DNA from: a virus
Direction: 5' to 3' (one strand)
Length of the DNA: 23,470 nt
Virus record (IMG/VR): IMGVR_UViG_3300042895_000362
Span: 1 to 23,470 of that record
The notes below the pieces were generated by a model. The model worked only from the letters and a program-made list of their open reading frames with translations. It made no database searches and was not told the origin of the DNA. Both the position numbers and the translations under genes were made by a program. Numbering within the stretch: the first letter of the stretch is position 1; every line of letters starts with the position of its first letter. Shown here one piece after another: positions 7,836 to 22,138 of the stretch.

Positions 7836-8372
7836 GTGAGTCCATTATTTCGTAGCCCAAGTGGTATAGGTGTAGCATTACAATATATTGCACCAACACC
7901 TCCACCTGTGGTCCCACCTGTGGTCCCACCCGTAGTTCCTCCTGTCGTACCTCCAGTAGTTCCTCCTGTCGTACCACCTGTGGTTCCTCCAGTTGTGCCT
8001 CCTGTTGTGCCACCTGTAACTCCACCTCCTGTGGTACCTCCAGTTGTCCCACCTGTAACTCCACCTCCTGTAGTACCTCCTGTGGTGCCTCCAGTGGTTC
8101 CTCCTGTCGTACCTCCAGTTGTCCCACCAGTTGTTCCACCAGTTGTTCCACCTGTGGTTCCTCCAGTAGTACCACCAGTTGTACCTCCAGTAAGTCCATT
8201 AACAACTTATTACTGGGCATGTTGCTCTTGCGTACAAGGTTGCGACAGTTATGCATTTGCTACTTTTGCTGAAGCCTATGCCAATGCAAATGCAATTTGC
8301 GATGGAGCAGGAGTTGGTCTATGTTATGGACCAGGAACAAGCCCAGCGTCAGGTTGTGGACCATGTGCATAA
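7836..8372 (+). CDS. PPVV-repeat protein with Cys-rich C-terminal domain
   Basis: A 178-residue protein starting with GTG behind AAGGAG. Residues 1-21 are an ordinary leader without a convincing signal peptide. Residues 22-119 are about 24 four-residue units of the form PPVV (21 VV, two VT, one VS), which should adopt an extended polyproline-II rod about 30 nm long. Residues 120-178 form a small domain with eight cysteines ('YYWACCSCVQGC', then single Cys, then 'GCGPCA'), an even number that suits disulphides or metal binding. It follows the tail-tip genes, so a rigid stalk with a binding tip (adhesin or fibre) is the most natural reading. I do not know a named family. The prolines may be targets of the oxygenases encoded just downstream. 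Confidence 0.7.
   Translation: MSPLFRSPSGIGVALQYIAPTPPPVVPPVVPPVVPPVVPPVVPPVVPPVVPPVVPPVVPPVTPPPVVPPVVPPVTPPPVVPPVVPPVVPPVVPPVVPPVVPPVVPPVVPPVVPPVVPPVSPLTTYYWACCSCVQGCDSYAFATFAEAYANANAICDGAGVGLCYGPGTSPASGCGPCA
7899..8192 (+). repeat. PPVV tetrapeptide repeat tract
   Basis: About 24 twelve-base units encode PPV[V/T/S]. The units use different synonymous codons (GTGGTC, GTAGTT, GTCGTA, GTTGTG, CCTCCA, CCACCT and others), so the amino-acid repeat is kept while the DNA has diverged. Two PPVT units split the tract into blocks of 9, 2 and 10 PPVV units. The reverse strand reads open as a shadow. Confidence 0.9.
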
Positions 8373-8992: not shown

Positions 8993-9525
8993 TGAATAAA
9001 GAAGAACTTTCTCCAGGTATTGTAATCTATAAAGATGCAATCAAAGATAGGGCCTACCTACTTGATCTTATGAAAAGAGTCAATTATGACGAAATTGGTG
9101 GAGCCAGAGATGTTGGTATCTGTTATATTAAGCAGGATTCAAAAGAAACTACACTATTTGACATTGAAGAAATATTAGAGTCGTCATTAGACCAATGCCT
9201 AAAAGATTATTGCAGACAATACGCTATTGATGGAATTGTTCCAGAAAACTGGCAATTAGTCAGGTACGGAGAAGGACAACAATTTGGAACTCATCTTGAT
9301 GAGAATTATGATAATCCAAGAACAGTATCTCTGACCATGTATATAAACAATGATTATACTGGTGGAGAATTAGAATATGTTTGGTTCAATAAGATTTATA
9401 GACCAGATCCAGGTGATATTATTATCTTTCCTTCCAACTATGTATTCTCACATAAAGTCCACAAGGTTTTGTCAGGTACAAGATATGTAGTTGTAAGATT
9501 TTACAAATGGAGGACAATAAAATGA
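8992..9525 (+). CDS. Prolyl-4-hydroxylase-like 2OG-Fe(II) oxygenase 1
   Basis: A 177-residue single-domain oxygenase starting in the TAATG overlap with the zinc-ribbon gene. Iron ligands are visible: H101-x-D103 in 'GTHLDENYD' and a distal H154 in 'SHKVHKVLSGTRY', with R164 ten residues later to hold 2-oxoglutarate. The 'YIN-x-DY-x-GGELE' and 'PGDIIIFPS' strands between them are the double-stranded beta-helix core seen in prolyl-4-hydroxylase-type enzymes. These hydroxylate side chains, usually of a protein, using O2 and 2-oxoglutarate. The substrate is unknown; the neighbouring PPVV protein is an attractive candidate. It overlaps the next oxygenase by ATGA. Confidence 0.85.
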   Translation: MNKEELSPGIVIYKDAIKDRAYLLDLMKRVNYDEIGGARDVGICYIKQDSKETTLFDIEEILESSLDQCLKDYCRQYAIDGIVPENWQLVRYGEGQQFGTHLDENYDNPRTVSLTMYINNDYTGGELEYVWFNKIYRPDPGDIIIFPSNYVFSHKVHKVLSGTRYVVVRFYKWRTIK

Positions 9526-13881: not shown

Positions 13882-13962
13882 ATGCCAATGAGTAGGGGCA
13901 GTTCAACTACCAAAGGAGAAGATTTATTAACGGAAAAATTAAATTATGGCAAAGAGCAGTAA
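13882..13962 (+). CDS. Very small peptide (26 residues), possible coupling frame
   Basis: The ATG at 13882 has one of the best ribosome sites in the window (AAAGGAGGT, spacing about seven). The peptide is polar, with no membrane segment. Its second half overlaps the start region of the transglycosylase in another frame, so it may serve to load ribosomes for that gene rather than to make a useful product. It could also be a real micro-protein. Confidence 0.42.
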   Translation: MPMSRGSSTTKGEDLLTEKLNYGKEQ

Positions 13963-14342
13963 TTGTCTCTTTACTAGCAATTTTTATTCAAGCAAGCATT
14001 ACAACAGAACAAGCAGTACCTGAGTTAGTTATATATAAAGACAGGCCACCATTGCTGAGCGTAAATGCAAAGGAAGTGGCTAAGGATTTGCTCAACAAAG
14101 AGCAATTTCTGTGTTTGACCAAGTTGATTGGAAAAGAGTCAGCCTGGAATCCAAAAGCAGAGAACCCAGTTTCTACAGCCAGTGGAATTGGACAACTCCT
14201 AGACAGCACAGCAAGCAGCCTAGGAATGAAGAAATCAGATAGTGCAGTGTCCCAATTGGTCGCTACATTATCTTATATCTCAAGAAGGCATTCACATCCG
14301 TGTGGAGCCTGGAAACATTTTCAGAAGAAAGGCTGGTACTAG
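13926..14342 (+). CDS. Exported lytic transglycosylase (SLT-like), unusual start
   Basis: The conserved domain starts near 14100: 'LTKLIGKESAWNPKAENP' carries the catalytic Glu, then 'SGIGQLL' and a final 'PCGAWKHF...GWY', the form typical of actinobacterial lytic transglycosylases, which cut the glycan strands of peptidoglycan. The frame stays open upstream to 13896 and encodes a basic start then 'AVIVSLLAIFIQA', a signal anchor. No ATG, GTG or TTG lies ahead of that segment. I take the ATT at 13926 as start because AAGGAG (13913-13918) precedes it by seven bases; a TTG at 14052 would lose the export signal. From ATT the protein is 138 residues, with catalytic E72. It probably acts as the lysin with the holins upstream. 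Confidence 0.65.
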   Translation: MNGKIKLWQRAVIVSLLAIFIQASITTEQAVPELVIYKDRPPLLSVNAKEVAKDLLNKEQFLCLTKLIGKESAWNPKAENPVSTASGIGQLLDSTASSLGMKKSDSAVSQLVATLSYISRRHSHPCGAWKHFQKKGWY

Positions 14343-14448: not shown

Positions 14449-14538
14449 ATGACAGAAGAAATTACACAAGAAGAAGATTTTGTTGAAGTGTGGACTACTG
14501 ATGAAAACGGTAATAAAACAAAAATTAAACTATATTGA
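14449..14538 (+). CDS. Micro-protein B (29 residues), paralogue of A
   Basis: Has a proper ribosome site (AAGGAG) overlapping the end of micro-protein A. Its ending 'VWTTDENGNKTKIKLY' matches that of A position by position (W, D-x-x-GN, K-x-K-x-Y). The stop codon overlaps the -35 box of the small RNA 2 promoter. Such short paired peptides are often missed. Function is unknown; an acidic N-terminus with a beta-hairpin-like C-terminus suggests a protein-binding inhibitor at most. Confidence 0.55.
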   Translation: MTEEITQEEDFVEVWTTDENGNKTKIKLY

Positions 14539-14564
14539 CATAACCAAGTAGCACCTGCTACAAT
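14535..14564 (+). promoter_or_regulatory. Strong promoter of small RNA 2
   Basis: A perfect TTGACA (14535-14540), 18-base spacer, TACAAT (14559-14564), the same -10 and spacing as the promoters at 12805 and 12933. Predicted start near 14571. Confidence 0.75.
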
Positions 14565-14570
14565 AGAATT

Positions 14571-14655
14571 CTATGTTGTTCACCTCCAAGTAACTCATAG
14601 ACCATAGGAAGTCCTGGTTCTTTAACTCCCGTTTCTGGCCAGGGCTTCCTTTTTT
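14571..14655 (+). ncRNA. Candidate small RNA 2 (about 85 nt) with anti-Shine-Dalgarno loop
   Basis: The unit lies between a perfect promoter and a terminator and has no reading frame of note. The first predicted hairpin pairs CTATG (14571-14575) with CATAG (14596-14600), with a possible inner GTT/AAC pairing. Its loop shows TCACCTCC (14580-14587), identical to the anti-Shine-Dalgarno core at the 3' end of bacterial 16S rRNA. The second hairpin is the terminator. An RNA of this type could mask G-rich ribosome sites on messages. It does not belong to a family I know. Confidence 0.6.
14607..14655 (+). terminator. Intrinsic terminator of small RNA 2
   Basis: GGAAGTCCTGG (14607-14617) pairs with CCAGGGCTTCC (14639-14649) with one G-T wobble, 11 pairs in all, followed by six Ts (14650-14655). 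The loop is rather long (21 bases). Confidence 0.8.
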
Positions 14656-14656
14656 G

Positions 14657-14683
14657 TGTCTGTAATGTCCGTATTGTCCGTTT
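14657..14683. repeat. Three tandem 9-bp iterons
   Basis: TGTCTGTAA, TGTCCGTAT and TGTCCGTTT follow each other without gap, just after the terminator. The sequence continues into CTGTAACAT, which may be a fourth, degenerate unit. ACGGACAT, the complement of the central part, occurs also in the leader at 13375-13382. Such iterated units are typical of repressor or replication-initiator binding, but no binding protein is evident. Confidence 0.5.
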
Positions 14684-14705
14684 CTGTAACATGATTGTAA
14701 TAAAA

Positions 14706-14722
14706 GTTTACATGAATGTAAC
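14706..14722. promoter_or_regulatory. Operator-like palindrome 1
   Basis: GTTTACA-TGAA-TGTAAC, containing a perfect TTACAT-GA-ATGTAA palindrome. Its right edge lies 43 bases ahead of the first base of the -10 box at 14765, so its centre is about 62 bases upstream of the predicted transcript start. The same motif occurs at 17202-17217 with the same spacing. Confidence 0.5.
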
Positions 14723-14740
14723 ATAAGAAAAGACTTTGGC

Positions 14741-14770
14741 TTGCTTTTTAATAAACAATGCTGCTATACT
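14741..14770 (+). promoter_or_regulatory. Promoter of the small-gene operon at 14946
   Basis: TTGCTT (14741-14746), 18-base spacer, TATACT (14765-14770). Predicted start about 14777. Confidence 0.55.
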
Positions 14771-14776
14771 CTATTT

Positions 14777-14945
14777 ACTGGACAAAAGCGTTTGGCGATA
14801 ATATCAAGGGTTCGCACCAGGCAATCAGAAGATTCTTTCTGATCAGTATTCTTTAACTTATATTAATTTATAAGGTGAGGGTTGCTGCTCAGAAGGTTCT
14901 AAAAAGAAAAAAGAACAAAACAAAAAAAGAAATGGGGCAAGGAAA
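14777..14945 (+). promoter_or_regulatory. Long 5' leader of the 14946 gene
   Basis: The stretch 14539-14945 has no gene. Its last 170 bases would be an untranslated leader. Visible in it are a hairpin ATCAGAA/TTCTGAT (14824-14830 with 14837-14843), not followed by a T-run, an AG-rich zone with GTTCT/AGAAC able to pair, and a five-codon frame (ATG at 14932) whose TGA overlaps the ATG at 14946. I could not match it to a known riboswitch. GGGTTCG near 14809 resembles a tRNA T-loop, but no tRNA can be folded around it. Confidence 0.35.
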
Positions 14946-15308
14946 ATGAGTCAACCTTTTAAAAGAGACAGATTAAGTCATCAAAACAGACTACTGTCTA
15001 ATGCAAGTCATCAAGACCATAATTGGAAGCAATTAACCAACAAGTACAAGAACACATGCTGTGTATGCAACAGATCAATTGATGTTGGAGATGTTATTCT
15101 CTGGAATAAAGATCAAGGCCTTGTCTGCCATTTACCAGAGATGTGTTCATTCTTAGGTGCAAGGAAAAAGCGTAAATCAACTAGAGCAGATGCCACAAAT
15201 CCAAGGGCAAAGGGAACTAACCCAATATCTAAAAGACAACTAGAAGAAGAAAGACTTGCAAAGCGTATTGAGCAATATACATTCCCAGTGGAAGTAACAA
15301 AAATATGA
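14946..15308 (+). CDS. Zinc-finger-like basic protein
   Basis: A 120-residue basic protein with AAGGA before the ATG. The centre has 'CCVCNRSIDVGDVILW' and 'LVCHLPEMC' (about residues 38-67), giving CxxC and CHx4C, enough for one zinc site. The N-terminus is Arg/His-rich and the C-terminus a charged helix ('KRQLEEERLAKRIEQYTF'). The 'C..C...i..G..i.W......vCH...C' form occurs in small phage and plasmid proteins thought to bind nucleic acid. It is the first gene of a run of overlapping genes behind the long leader. It ends TATGA, overlapping the next start. Function is unknown. Confidence 0.6.
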   Translation: MSQPFKRDRLSHQNRLLSNASHQDHNWKQLTNKYKNTCCVCNRSIDVGDVILWNKDQGLVCHLPEMCSFLGARKKRKSTRADATNPRAKGTNPISKRQLEEERLAKRIEQYTFPVEVTKI

Positions 15309-20838: not shown

Positions 20839-21357
20839 ATGGCTCAACCAACTGCGGGAAGACCTCCTAAGCCTAATGAATTAAAGAGGCTTATGGGCAA
20901 CCCTGGAAATCATCCTTTGCCTGATTTAAATGTGATTACGCATTTACCAATGGCTAAGGAAATACCAACACCACCAGAAAATCTTAATCAGTCTGGATTA
21001 GATTTGTGGAATCGTGCTTGGGGCGTGGCTATAACTTGGCTTAGTCCAGTTAGTGATATTGAGTCAGTTAAGAATGCAGCAAACCTTGCTGATGCCAATG
21101 AAGCAGCAAGAGAGCGTTATATGATTTCCACAGAGCCTGCAGATGCTAAAGCATATGTAGCAGTTAACAAAGCATTTACGGATGCTCTGACCTCACTGGC
21201 ATTTGATCCAGTTTCAAGATCTCGTTTAGGAGTTGCAGAAGTAAGAGCAGCAACCTCAATTGATAAATTGTTAGAGAAAAGGCAGAATCGTGCCAAAGTA
21301 ATTTTTGAAGAAGAAGACATAAACCAAGGGGCTGAGTATGAACCAAGTAACACTTAA
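20839..21357 (+). CDS. terS: Terminase small subunit, P27 type
   Basis: A 172-residue protein. I take the ATG at 20839, since 'MAQPTAGRPPKPNELKRLMG' is the standard start of P27-family small terminases; an ATG at 20797 adds a basic stretch of 14 residues and cannot be excluded. 'GRPPKP...LMGNPGNHPLP' is the conserved element, followed by 'LNQSGLDLWNRAWGVAITWL' and a helical body. The protein binds packaging sites on the genome and hands DNA to the large subunit. It lies just after the HNH gene and cos candidate. Its end overlaps the S1-like gene by 20 bases, an unusual neighbour. Confidence 0.88.
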   Translation: MAQPTAGRPPKPNELKRLMGNPGNHPLPDLNVITHLPMAKEIPTPPENLNQSGLDLWNRAWGVAITWLSPVSDIESVKNAANLADANEAARERYMISTEPADAKAYVAVNKAFTDALTSLAFDPVSRSRLGVAEVRAATSIDKLLEKRQNRAKVIFEEEDINQGAEYEPSNT

Positions 21358-22138
21358 CGATATAGGAACACCAGAAGACTTCCTAAGAGCAATAGACGAA
21401 TCAATGAAGGAGTACTTTGTTGGTGATATTGTCACAGGAACAGTTGTTCAAATTGATCGTGAAGGCATACTTCTAGATATTGGCTGTAAGAGCGAAGGCC
21501 ATATCCCAAAGAAGGAAGTAACTGCCAAGAGGATATTTGATATTCATGATGTTGTCTCAATAGGCCAGGTTTTACAGGCTACTGTAATAGGGCTAGATGA
21601 CGAAGGCTATGTTCTCTCTATGAAAGAGGCAGAGGTTGAGATTCTATGGAACTCTATTGAGGCCATATGGAATTCAGATAATAAAATTGTCTCTGGAGAA
21701 ATCACTAGAATTGTCAAGGGTGGCATGATAGTAGATATTGGCCTAAGAGCATTTTTGCCAGCATCACAATTCCATGTTGATAAGTCAGAGGATTTGGCTA
21801 ATTATGTTGGCCAAAGAGTAGAAGCCAAGATCATTCAATTTGATAGAGCAAAGGGCAATATCGTCATCTCACGAAAAGCACTTGTTGAGTTTGATCAGAA
21901 GGAAGATAAGAAGATTCAATTTAGTAAATTGGCTATTGGCCAAGTACATACAGGCAAGGTTTCAGGTATTACTAACTTTGGAGTATTTGTTTCTCTTGGC
22001 TTAGTATCTGGTTTAATCCATCAATCTAAAATGGGTAAACTTACTCCTGAGCAATTTACGGTTAGTCAGCCAATTCAAGTAGAGATTATTGACATTGATT
22101 TTGACAAGGATAGGCTCTCGTTAGCATTTAAGGGATAA
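21338..22138 (+). CDS. Ribosomal protein S1-like protein with three S1 domains
   Basis: A 266-residue protein made almost wholly of three S1 RNA-binding domains. Domain 1 spans about 26-100 ('GDIVTGTVVQIDREGILLDI', then 'SEGHIPKKE'), domain 2 about 115-182 ('VKGGMIVDIGLRAFLPASQF', 'YVGQRVEAKII'), and domain 3 about 198-266 ('GKVSGITNFGVFVSLG', 'DKDRLSLAFKG'). These follow the first three domains of actinobacterial RpsA in order and in linker position; the last domain and the tail are missing. S1 helps the 30S subunit take up mRNA. The phage copy could steer ribosomes to phage messages, replace host S1, or protect RNA. It is placed between the terminase genes and coupled to the first. Confidence 0.88.
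   Translation: MNQVTLNDIGTPEDFLRAIDESMKEYFVGDIVTGTVVQIDREGILLDIGCKSEGHIPKKEVTAKRIFDIHDVVSIGQVLQATVIGLDDEGYVLSMKEAEVEILWNSIEAIWNSDNKIVSGEITRIVKGGMIVDIGLRAFLPASQFHVDKSEDLANYVGQRVEAKIIQFDRAKGNIVISRKALVEFDQKEDKKIQFSKLAIGQVHTGKVSGITNFGVFVSLGLVSGLIHQSKMGKLTPEQFTVSQPIQVEIIDIDFDKDRLSLAFKG

Follow-up and report, generated by a model that had tools for sequence, protein, structure and literature searches.

A conserved candidate small RNA with a predicted anti-Shine-Dalgarno loop in phages of probable actinobacterial hosts

Introduction

Does a short segment lying between two operons of an uncultured phage encode a small RNA that displays the anti-Shine-Dalgarno (anti-SD) sequence of 16S rRNA, and if so, which messages might such an RNA act upon? 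Bacterial chromosomes are known to encode small RNAs of the anti-SD type. The segment analysed here belongs to a virus record of 23,470 bases, the whole of which is referred to as the window, and it was brought to attention by a first-pass annotation made from the sequence. The window carries tail, lysis-type, small zinc-finger and terminase genes, as well as one for a phage FDXHR zinc protein; behind the tail genes, at 7836-8372, lies a protein made largely of proline-valine repeats (PPVVPPVV). The RNA unit follows the transglycosylase operon and precedes the next one (Table 1). All isolate matches of the transglycosylase (240/240) were to phages of actinobacteria, so that, judged by sequence, the window probably represents a family of uncultured phages with actinobacterial hosts, the host likely being a low-GC aquatic actinobacterium. 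It may be mentioned that the transglycosylase appears to start in all subfamilies examined at a conserved AUU following AAGGAG (AAAGGAGAAGATTTATTAAC, window 13911-13928); AUU starts are rare and often regulated.

Results and discussion

Structure of the locus

The first-pass annotation had described a perfect promoter, a non-coding stretch of about 85 bases and a strong terminator, and each of them was found in its place; the promoter motif and its spacer of 18 stood as well, but with a score of 11/12 the promoter is not perfect in the strict sense. Promoters scoring at least 11/12 were observed three times in the window against 0.9 expected, that is, about one per window by chance, and a promoter of this score is on its own weak evidence. 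The predicted fold of the window RNA gave a z of -4.4, with none of 200 shuffles equally good, and contains two C-rich loops, that of the CCUCC hairpin and that of the terminator (CUCCC/UCCC). As had been claimed, TCACCTCC lies at the loop of the first hairpin with its CUCC exposed, but the full 8-mer is not unpaired: in the minimum-energy fold its 'AC' pairs with 'GU', leaving CUCCAA as the strict apical loop, and UCA is partly paired. Dinucleotide shuffling of the 85-nt RNA produced TCACCTCC in 0.6% of cases, and about 0.06% would be expected at genome composition, so that the single sequence is suggestive, short of conclusive; the first-pass annotation had called an 8-base match unlikely by chance but not impossible.

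Table 1. Features of the RNA unit and of two neighbouring or associated genes, in window coordinates
Feature	Position	Strand	Basis or remark
Free-standing transcription unit (promoter, CCTCC hairpin, terminator)	14535-14657	+	Sequence prediction
Sigma-70-type promoter, TTGACA-18-TACAAT	14535-14564	+	-10 TG-extended
-35 element, TTGACA	14535-14540	+	Spacer 18
-10 element, TACAAT	14559-14564	+	
Inferred small RNA, about 85 nt (85-90)	14571-14657	+	Start inferred 7 nt past the -10
5' hairpin, TCTATG...CATAGA	14570-14601	+	Fold, alignment of relatives
Anti-SD element, TCACCTCC	14580-14587	+	Constant core CCTCC 14583-14587, CUCC exposed
Intrinsic terminator, 14-bp stem and T tract	14606-14657	+	Hairpin 14606-14650; sequence replaced between relatives
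CTCCC in terminator loop	14626-14630	+	UCCC invariant in the window's subfamily (A)
Transglycosylase gene	14052-14342	+	Anchor of comparison; PHROG matches; possible AUU start at 13926
S1-like protein, three S1 RNA-binding domains (Pfam PF00575)	21338-22138	+	Adjoins terminase small subunit

Conservation among related phages

Relatives were sampled by the upstream transglycosylase protein without any use of the RNA, so that loss of the loop would have shown up, and 55 related viral contigs were returned. Those with an upstream protein at least 60% identical and sufficient downstream sequence were taken as informative (n=43), and 42 of them had a CCTCC hairpin and a terminator at the equivalent position, including one (L048) whose predicted fold differs. 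The sole exception, L021, has a different hairpin there with UGCUCCCUUUC in its loop (CUCCC), so that CUCC is still on offer. CCTCC was also present in L024, which is cut short and stands outside the 43, while seven remoter relatives (37-57% protein identity) had no CCTCC RNA. The first-pass annotation had named loss of the loop from relatives that keep the hairpin as the result that would speak against it, and its observation came through this comparison essentially intact; the observation is real, it is much stronger with the relatives than without them, and conservation in 42/43 relatives is the deciding evidence. A promoter with TTGACA or a close variant and a -10 of TACAAT, TATAAT or TATACT type was kept upstream of the RNA in nearly all relatives.

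When 2.9 million viral contigs were scanned for the promoter together with TCACCTCC, the same phage RNA family was recovered, and the remaining matches, judged by eye, resembled ordinary ribosome sites or coding sequence. Further copies turned up by pattern searches were confined to phages of this kind (e.g. L060). A model search of the whole of the longer RNA-bearing records gave mostly one good match each and two in none, and among isolated phages neither the locus nor the RNA had a blastn match.

The 36 distinct RNAs fall into three subfamilies. Subfamily A, to which the window belongs, has a TCTATG...CATAGA stem with UCACCUCC; subfamily B combines different stems with CACCUCCU, frequently with an additional hairpin at the 5' end; subfamily C has GUUGAUU(A/G)CCUCCU(A/G)AGUGUCAAC and an extra middle hairpin. 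CCTCC was the only 5-mer common to all 36, a count biased by the extraction script, which searched for CCTCC, so that the fair figure is the census of 42/43, in which an exception was detected. The runner-up, ACCTC, which belongs to the same element, occurred in 33/36 and the best stem 5-mer in 24/36. Since the loop variants UUACCUCC and UUGCCUCC occur besides UCACCUCC, the constant part, as refined by these sequences, is CCUCC/CUCC rather than UCACCUCC, though most members have the latter. CUCC was predicted unpaired in nearly all relatives, with a mean unpaired probability of 0.86-0.96, and the enclosing hairpins, 27 of them distinct, had a mean z of -1.9 (below -1 in 23). Changing stems around a constant CCUCC loop are best read as an anti-SD seed, although the exposed core is short, at 4-5 nt. 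In the RNAalifold analysis six pairs changed on both sides, of which five belong to the terminator and one to the hairpin; a G-C to A-U change is seen in the hairpin of L010. Pair counts within the AAGU-type hairpins did not demonstrate base-pair covariation, in part owing to a one-base shift of the inner stem among the aligned sequences.

Subfamily A shows several hairpins joined to terminators of at least four unrelated kinds, and UCCC in the terminator loop does not vary. Terminators (window 14606-14657, L004-L060) are swapped as modules with their pyrimidine-rich loops kept (CUCCCGUU, UUCCCAG, UCCCAUUCUC, CUCUCAUUCUC).

Proposed mode of action and likely targets

We propose that the locus probably, though by no means certainly, encodes a trans-acting phage small RNA with its own promoter, whose loop masks the Shine-Dalgarno (SD) sites of mRNAs and blocks binding of the 30S subunit. 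The RNA would be transcribed from its own strong promoter, its 5' hairpin would present the anti-SD core CCUCC (mostly UCACCUCC), this loop would pair with GGAGG(UGA) ribosome-binding sites, and 30S subunits would thereby be kept from binding. A second contact may come from the C-rich loop of the terminator (CUCCC/UCCC). The RNA thus probably binds ribosome-binding sites of messages and prevents their translation. By prediction it has two features of this functional class, namely a promoter and terminator of its own and an exposed, conserved anti-SD seed. Masking of ribosome sites had been suggested in the first-pass annotation and is partly supported; what stands behind it is a discrete, conserved and apparently non-coding RNA with the exposed anti-SD core as its sole constant internal element, the look to be expected of a masking RNA, and from such sequences we infer transcription, pairing, translational repression and the identity of the targets.

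The duplex of the window loop with the extended SD site AGGAGGUGAAU was predicted at -18.8 kcal/mol and that with the phage-type site AAGGAGAAAA at -7.2 kcal/mol, against -9.3 for 16S rRNA on AAGGAGAAAA; the weaker pairing of the loop is due to the letters that follow CCUCC, which are AA, GU or UG as opposed to UU in 16S rRNA. GGAGG sites were found at 1/32 genes of the window and at 4/149 and 9/153 genes in relatives, while Pontimonas phage phiPsal1 had them at 10/44. However, relatives without the RNA were also GGAGG-poor (2/55 genes), so the comparison of SD usage is only a hint, and the scarcity of GGAGG in this low-GC phage may have other causes. As phage genes rarely carry GGAGG and AAGGAG-type sites pair better with 16S rRNA, we suggest, with moderate confidence, that the main targets would be host messages with strong SD sites. 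If the mechanism is true, start sites of the GGAGGUGA kind should be repressed, with GGAGGUAA, AAGGAGA and leaderless starts for comparison, and the dozens of natural loop and stem variants make the idea directly testable with reporters.

The RNA could instead regulate the phage's own genes by timing particular GGAGG-bearing phage messages, a possibility we regard as doubtful but worth keeping in view. GGAGG does precede the window genes starting at 9522 (TGGAGGACAATAAAATG) and 19906 (AGGAGGAGG), in subfamily A an GGAGGTAA site lies before the transglycosylase, 700 bases upstream of the RNA, and in subfamilies B and C a small Cys-rich gene carries TGGAGGAA. But no site is common to all subfamilies, the GGAGGTAA site is missing where the loop is UUACCUCC, and the loop flanks do not co-vary with the sites. 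A single conserved phage target was sought across the subfamilies and none was found; the GGAGGTAA site before the transglycosylase was rejected as a universal target, being missing from the other subfamilies.

As an observation apart, the small Cys-rich protein of subfamilies B and C (e.g. MGGPT...CDCEDGCCK; L018, L019, L020, L026, L027, L036, L037 and L039) has GGAGG as its ribosome site; several records show GGAGG again directly after the start codon.

Returning to repression of host messages, the window also encodes an S1-like protein, and so do nine RNA-bearing relatives; its gene lies downstream of the RNA by about 6-7 kb in the window and in several of these relatives. It was missing from three near-full-length (30-34 kb) relatives without the RNA; RNA-bearing records that do not have it mostly end near or before its expected position. 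A search of genome contigs for the protein gave only a 30% match in a MAG. This distribution suggests that the RNA and the S1-like protein may form a joint translation programme. In a two-part takeover, the RNA would mask host GGAGG(UGA) sites while the S1-like protein would load ribosomes on AAGGAG-type, A-rich phage leaders; taken as a whole we think this scheme rather unlikely, although selective host shutoff is an attractive, unproven idea given the GGAGG-poor phage genes and the S1-like protein. Were it true, a phage RNA would shut off the host by acting on the SD sequence as such.

Other readings of the locus

It was also considered that the RNA is a decoy of the 3' end of 16S rRNA which soaks up a host RNase or toxin (e.g. 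a MazF cutting C^ACCU) or another reader of the 16S tail. The loop copies the 16S tail, in L037 matching GGAUCACCUCCU across 12 bases, and the mycobacterial MazF-mt11 cleaves at C^ACCU, immediately ahead of the anti-SD (PMC12274833), the host here probably being an actinobacterium. Yet constancy is limited to CCUCC while the wider 16S sequence varies, AC is paired in many members, and 6/36 distinct RNAs have UACCUCC or UGCCUCC and hence no CACCU; such variants weaken the idea of a MazF decoy in particular, and we judge a decoy improbable.

Less probable still is a cis element. This could be a transcription attenuator or leader, given that a hairpin and then a terminator stand ahead of the next operon, or a mini-gene, AUG UUG UUC ACC UCC AAG UAA, a 6-codon ORF of the window beginning about 4 nt from the inferred RNA start. 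Promoter and terminator of the RNA are its own, and relatives have a separate, new promoter past the terminator, which argues against a leader for the gene that follows. The mini-ORF does not persist among relatives: its frame shifts (MLSPPSNS, MLTPP) and AUG is absent in L010 and in the other subfamilies. Both forms were rejected by the comparison of relatives, which largely refutes them.

Separately, at 14740-14945 the window has another promoter-like site followed by a long, possibly structured leader ahead of the ORF at 14946. Four records (L001, L025, L039 and L040) have a different leader in common, which is well conserved over about 200 nt (CTTCAGAGCGTTTAGAGATC...) and had no Rfam match among the loci tested.

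Comparison with known systems

That the phage picked up a host-like or known RNA family, e.g. 6C RNA, is scarcely credible, for although actinobacterial 6C RNAs likewise have two C-rich loops, no Rfam family reached the gathering threshold in the window or in the loci of nine relatives, and at E<=10 the window gave chance matches only (the best being rhtB, 17.4 bits against a cut-off of 55).

A close likeness to an anti-SD small RNA of the kind proposed here is seen in the cuckoo RNAs (alpha-r14), in which the stems vary while an identical anti-SD motif (CCUCCUCCC) stays unpaired (PMC10746234); one of them, NfeR1 of Sinorhizobium meliloti, represses ntrB through its anti-SD loops by pairing at the start site (PMC10746234). 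The phage RNA similarly has a constant anti-SD loop in 27 distinct hairpins, with CCTCC in 36/36 RNAs of the CCTCC-guided extraction. In contrast, the cuckoo RNAs belong to alpha-proteobacterial chromosomes and repeat one 9-nt motif in all of their three hairpins, whereas the phage RNA, in place of CCUCCUCCC, has only CCUCC in one hairpin, accompanied by a C-rich terminator loop and otherwise different sequence. The actinobacterial 6C RNA B11 has two redundant C-rich loops and acts as repressor of a target whose 5' UTR contains a G tract (PMC10470900). It resembles the phage RNA in being a small RNA with two C-rich loops in an actinobacterial setting, but it is chromosomal and has C runs rather than CCUCC; the 6C hallmark of two hairpins with loop runs of about six C was not seen, as the CCUCC and CUCCC/UCCC loops hold no C6, and the 6C covariance model (RF01066) gave no match at the gathering threshold, nor up to E 10 on 14480-14720. 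In the absence of a covariance match and with different loop motifs, the phage RNA is a member of neither family.

Among phages, c4 of P1/P7 and other antisense RNAs have loops that pair around ribosome-binding sites (reviewed in PMC12197685); c4 is complementary to a single specific phage target, whereas the RNA described here has a generic anti-SD loop and no specific target was found for it. The passages of that review on Shine-Dalgarno, 16S and the ribosome contain no such anti-SD RNA, and our search of the open-access literature brought up no phage RNA family described as having a constant generic anti-SD loop. MazF-mt11 likewise disturbs recognition of the SD, acting on the same 16S sequence (PMC12274833), but it is a protein RNase that cuts 16S rRNA, while the phage RNA would cover the mRNA side. 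If our reading is true, a phage of little-studied and probably aquatic actinobacteria would tune or shut down translation by copying the recognition sequence of the ribosome into an RNA of 85 nt. The phage RNA most likely works like NfeR1 and 6C/B11 but forms a new family of its own.
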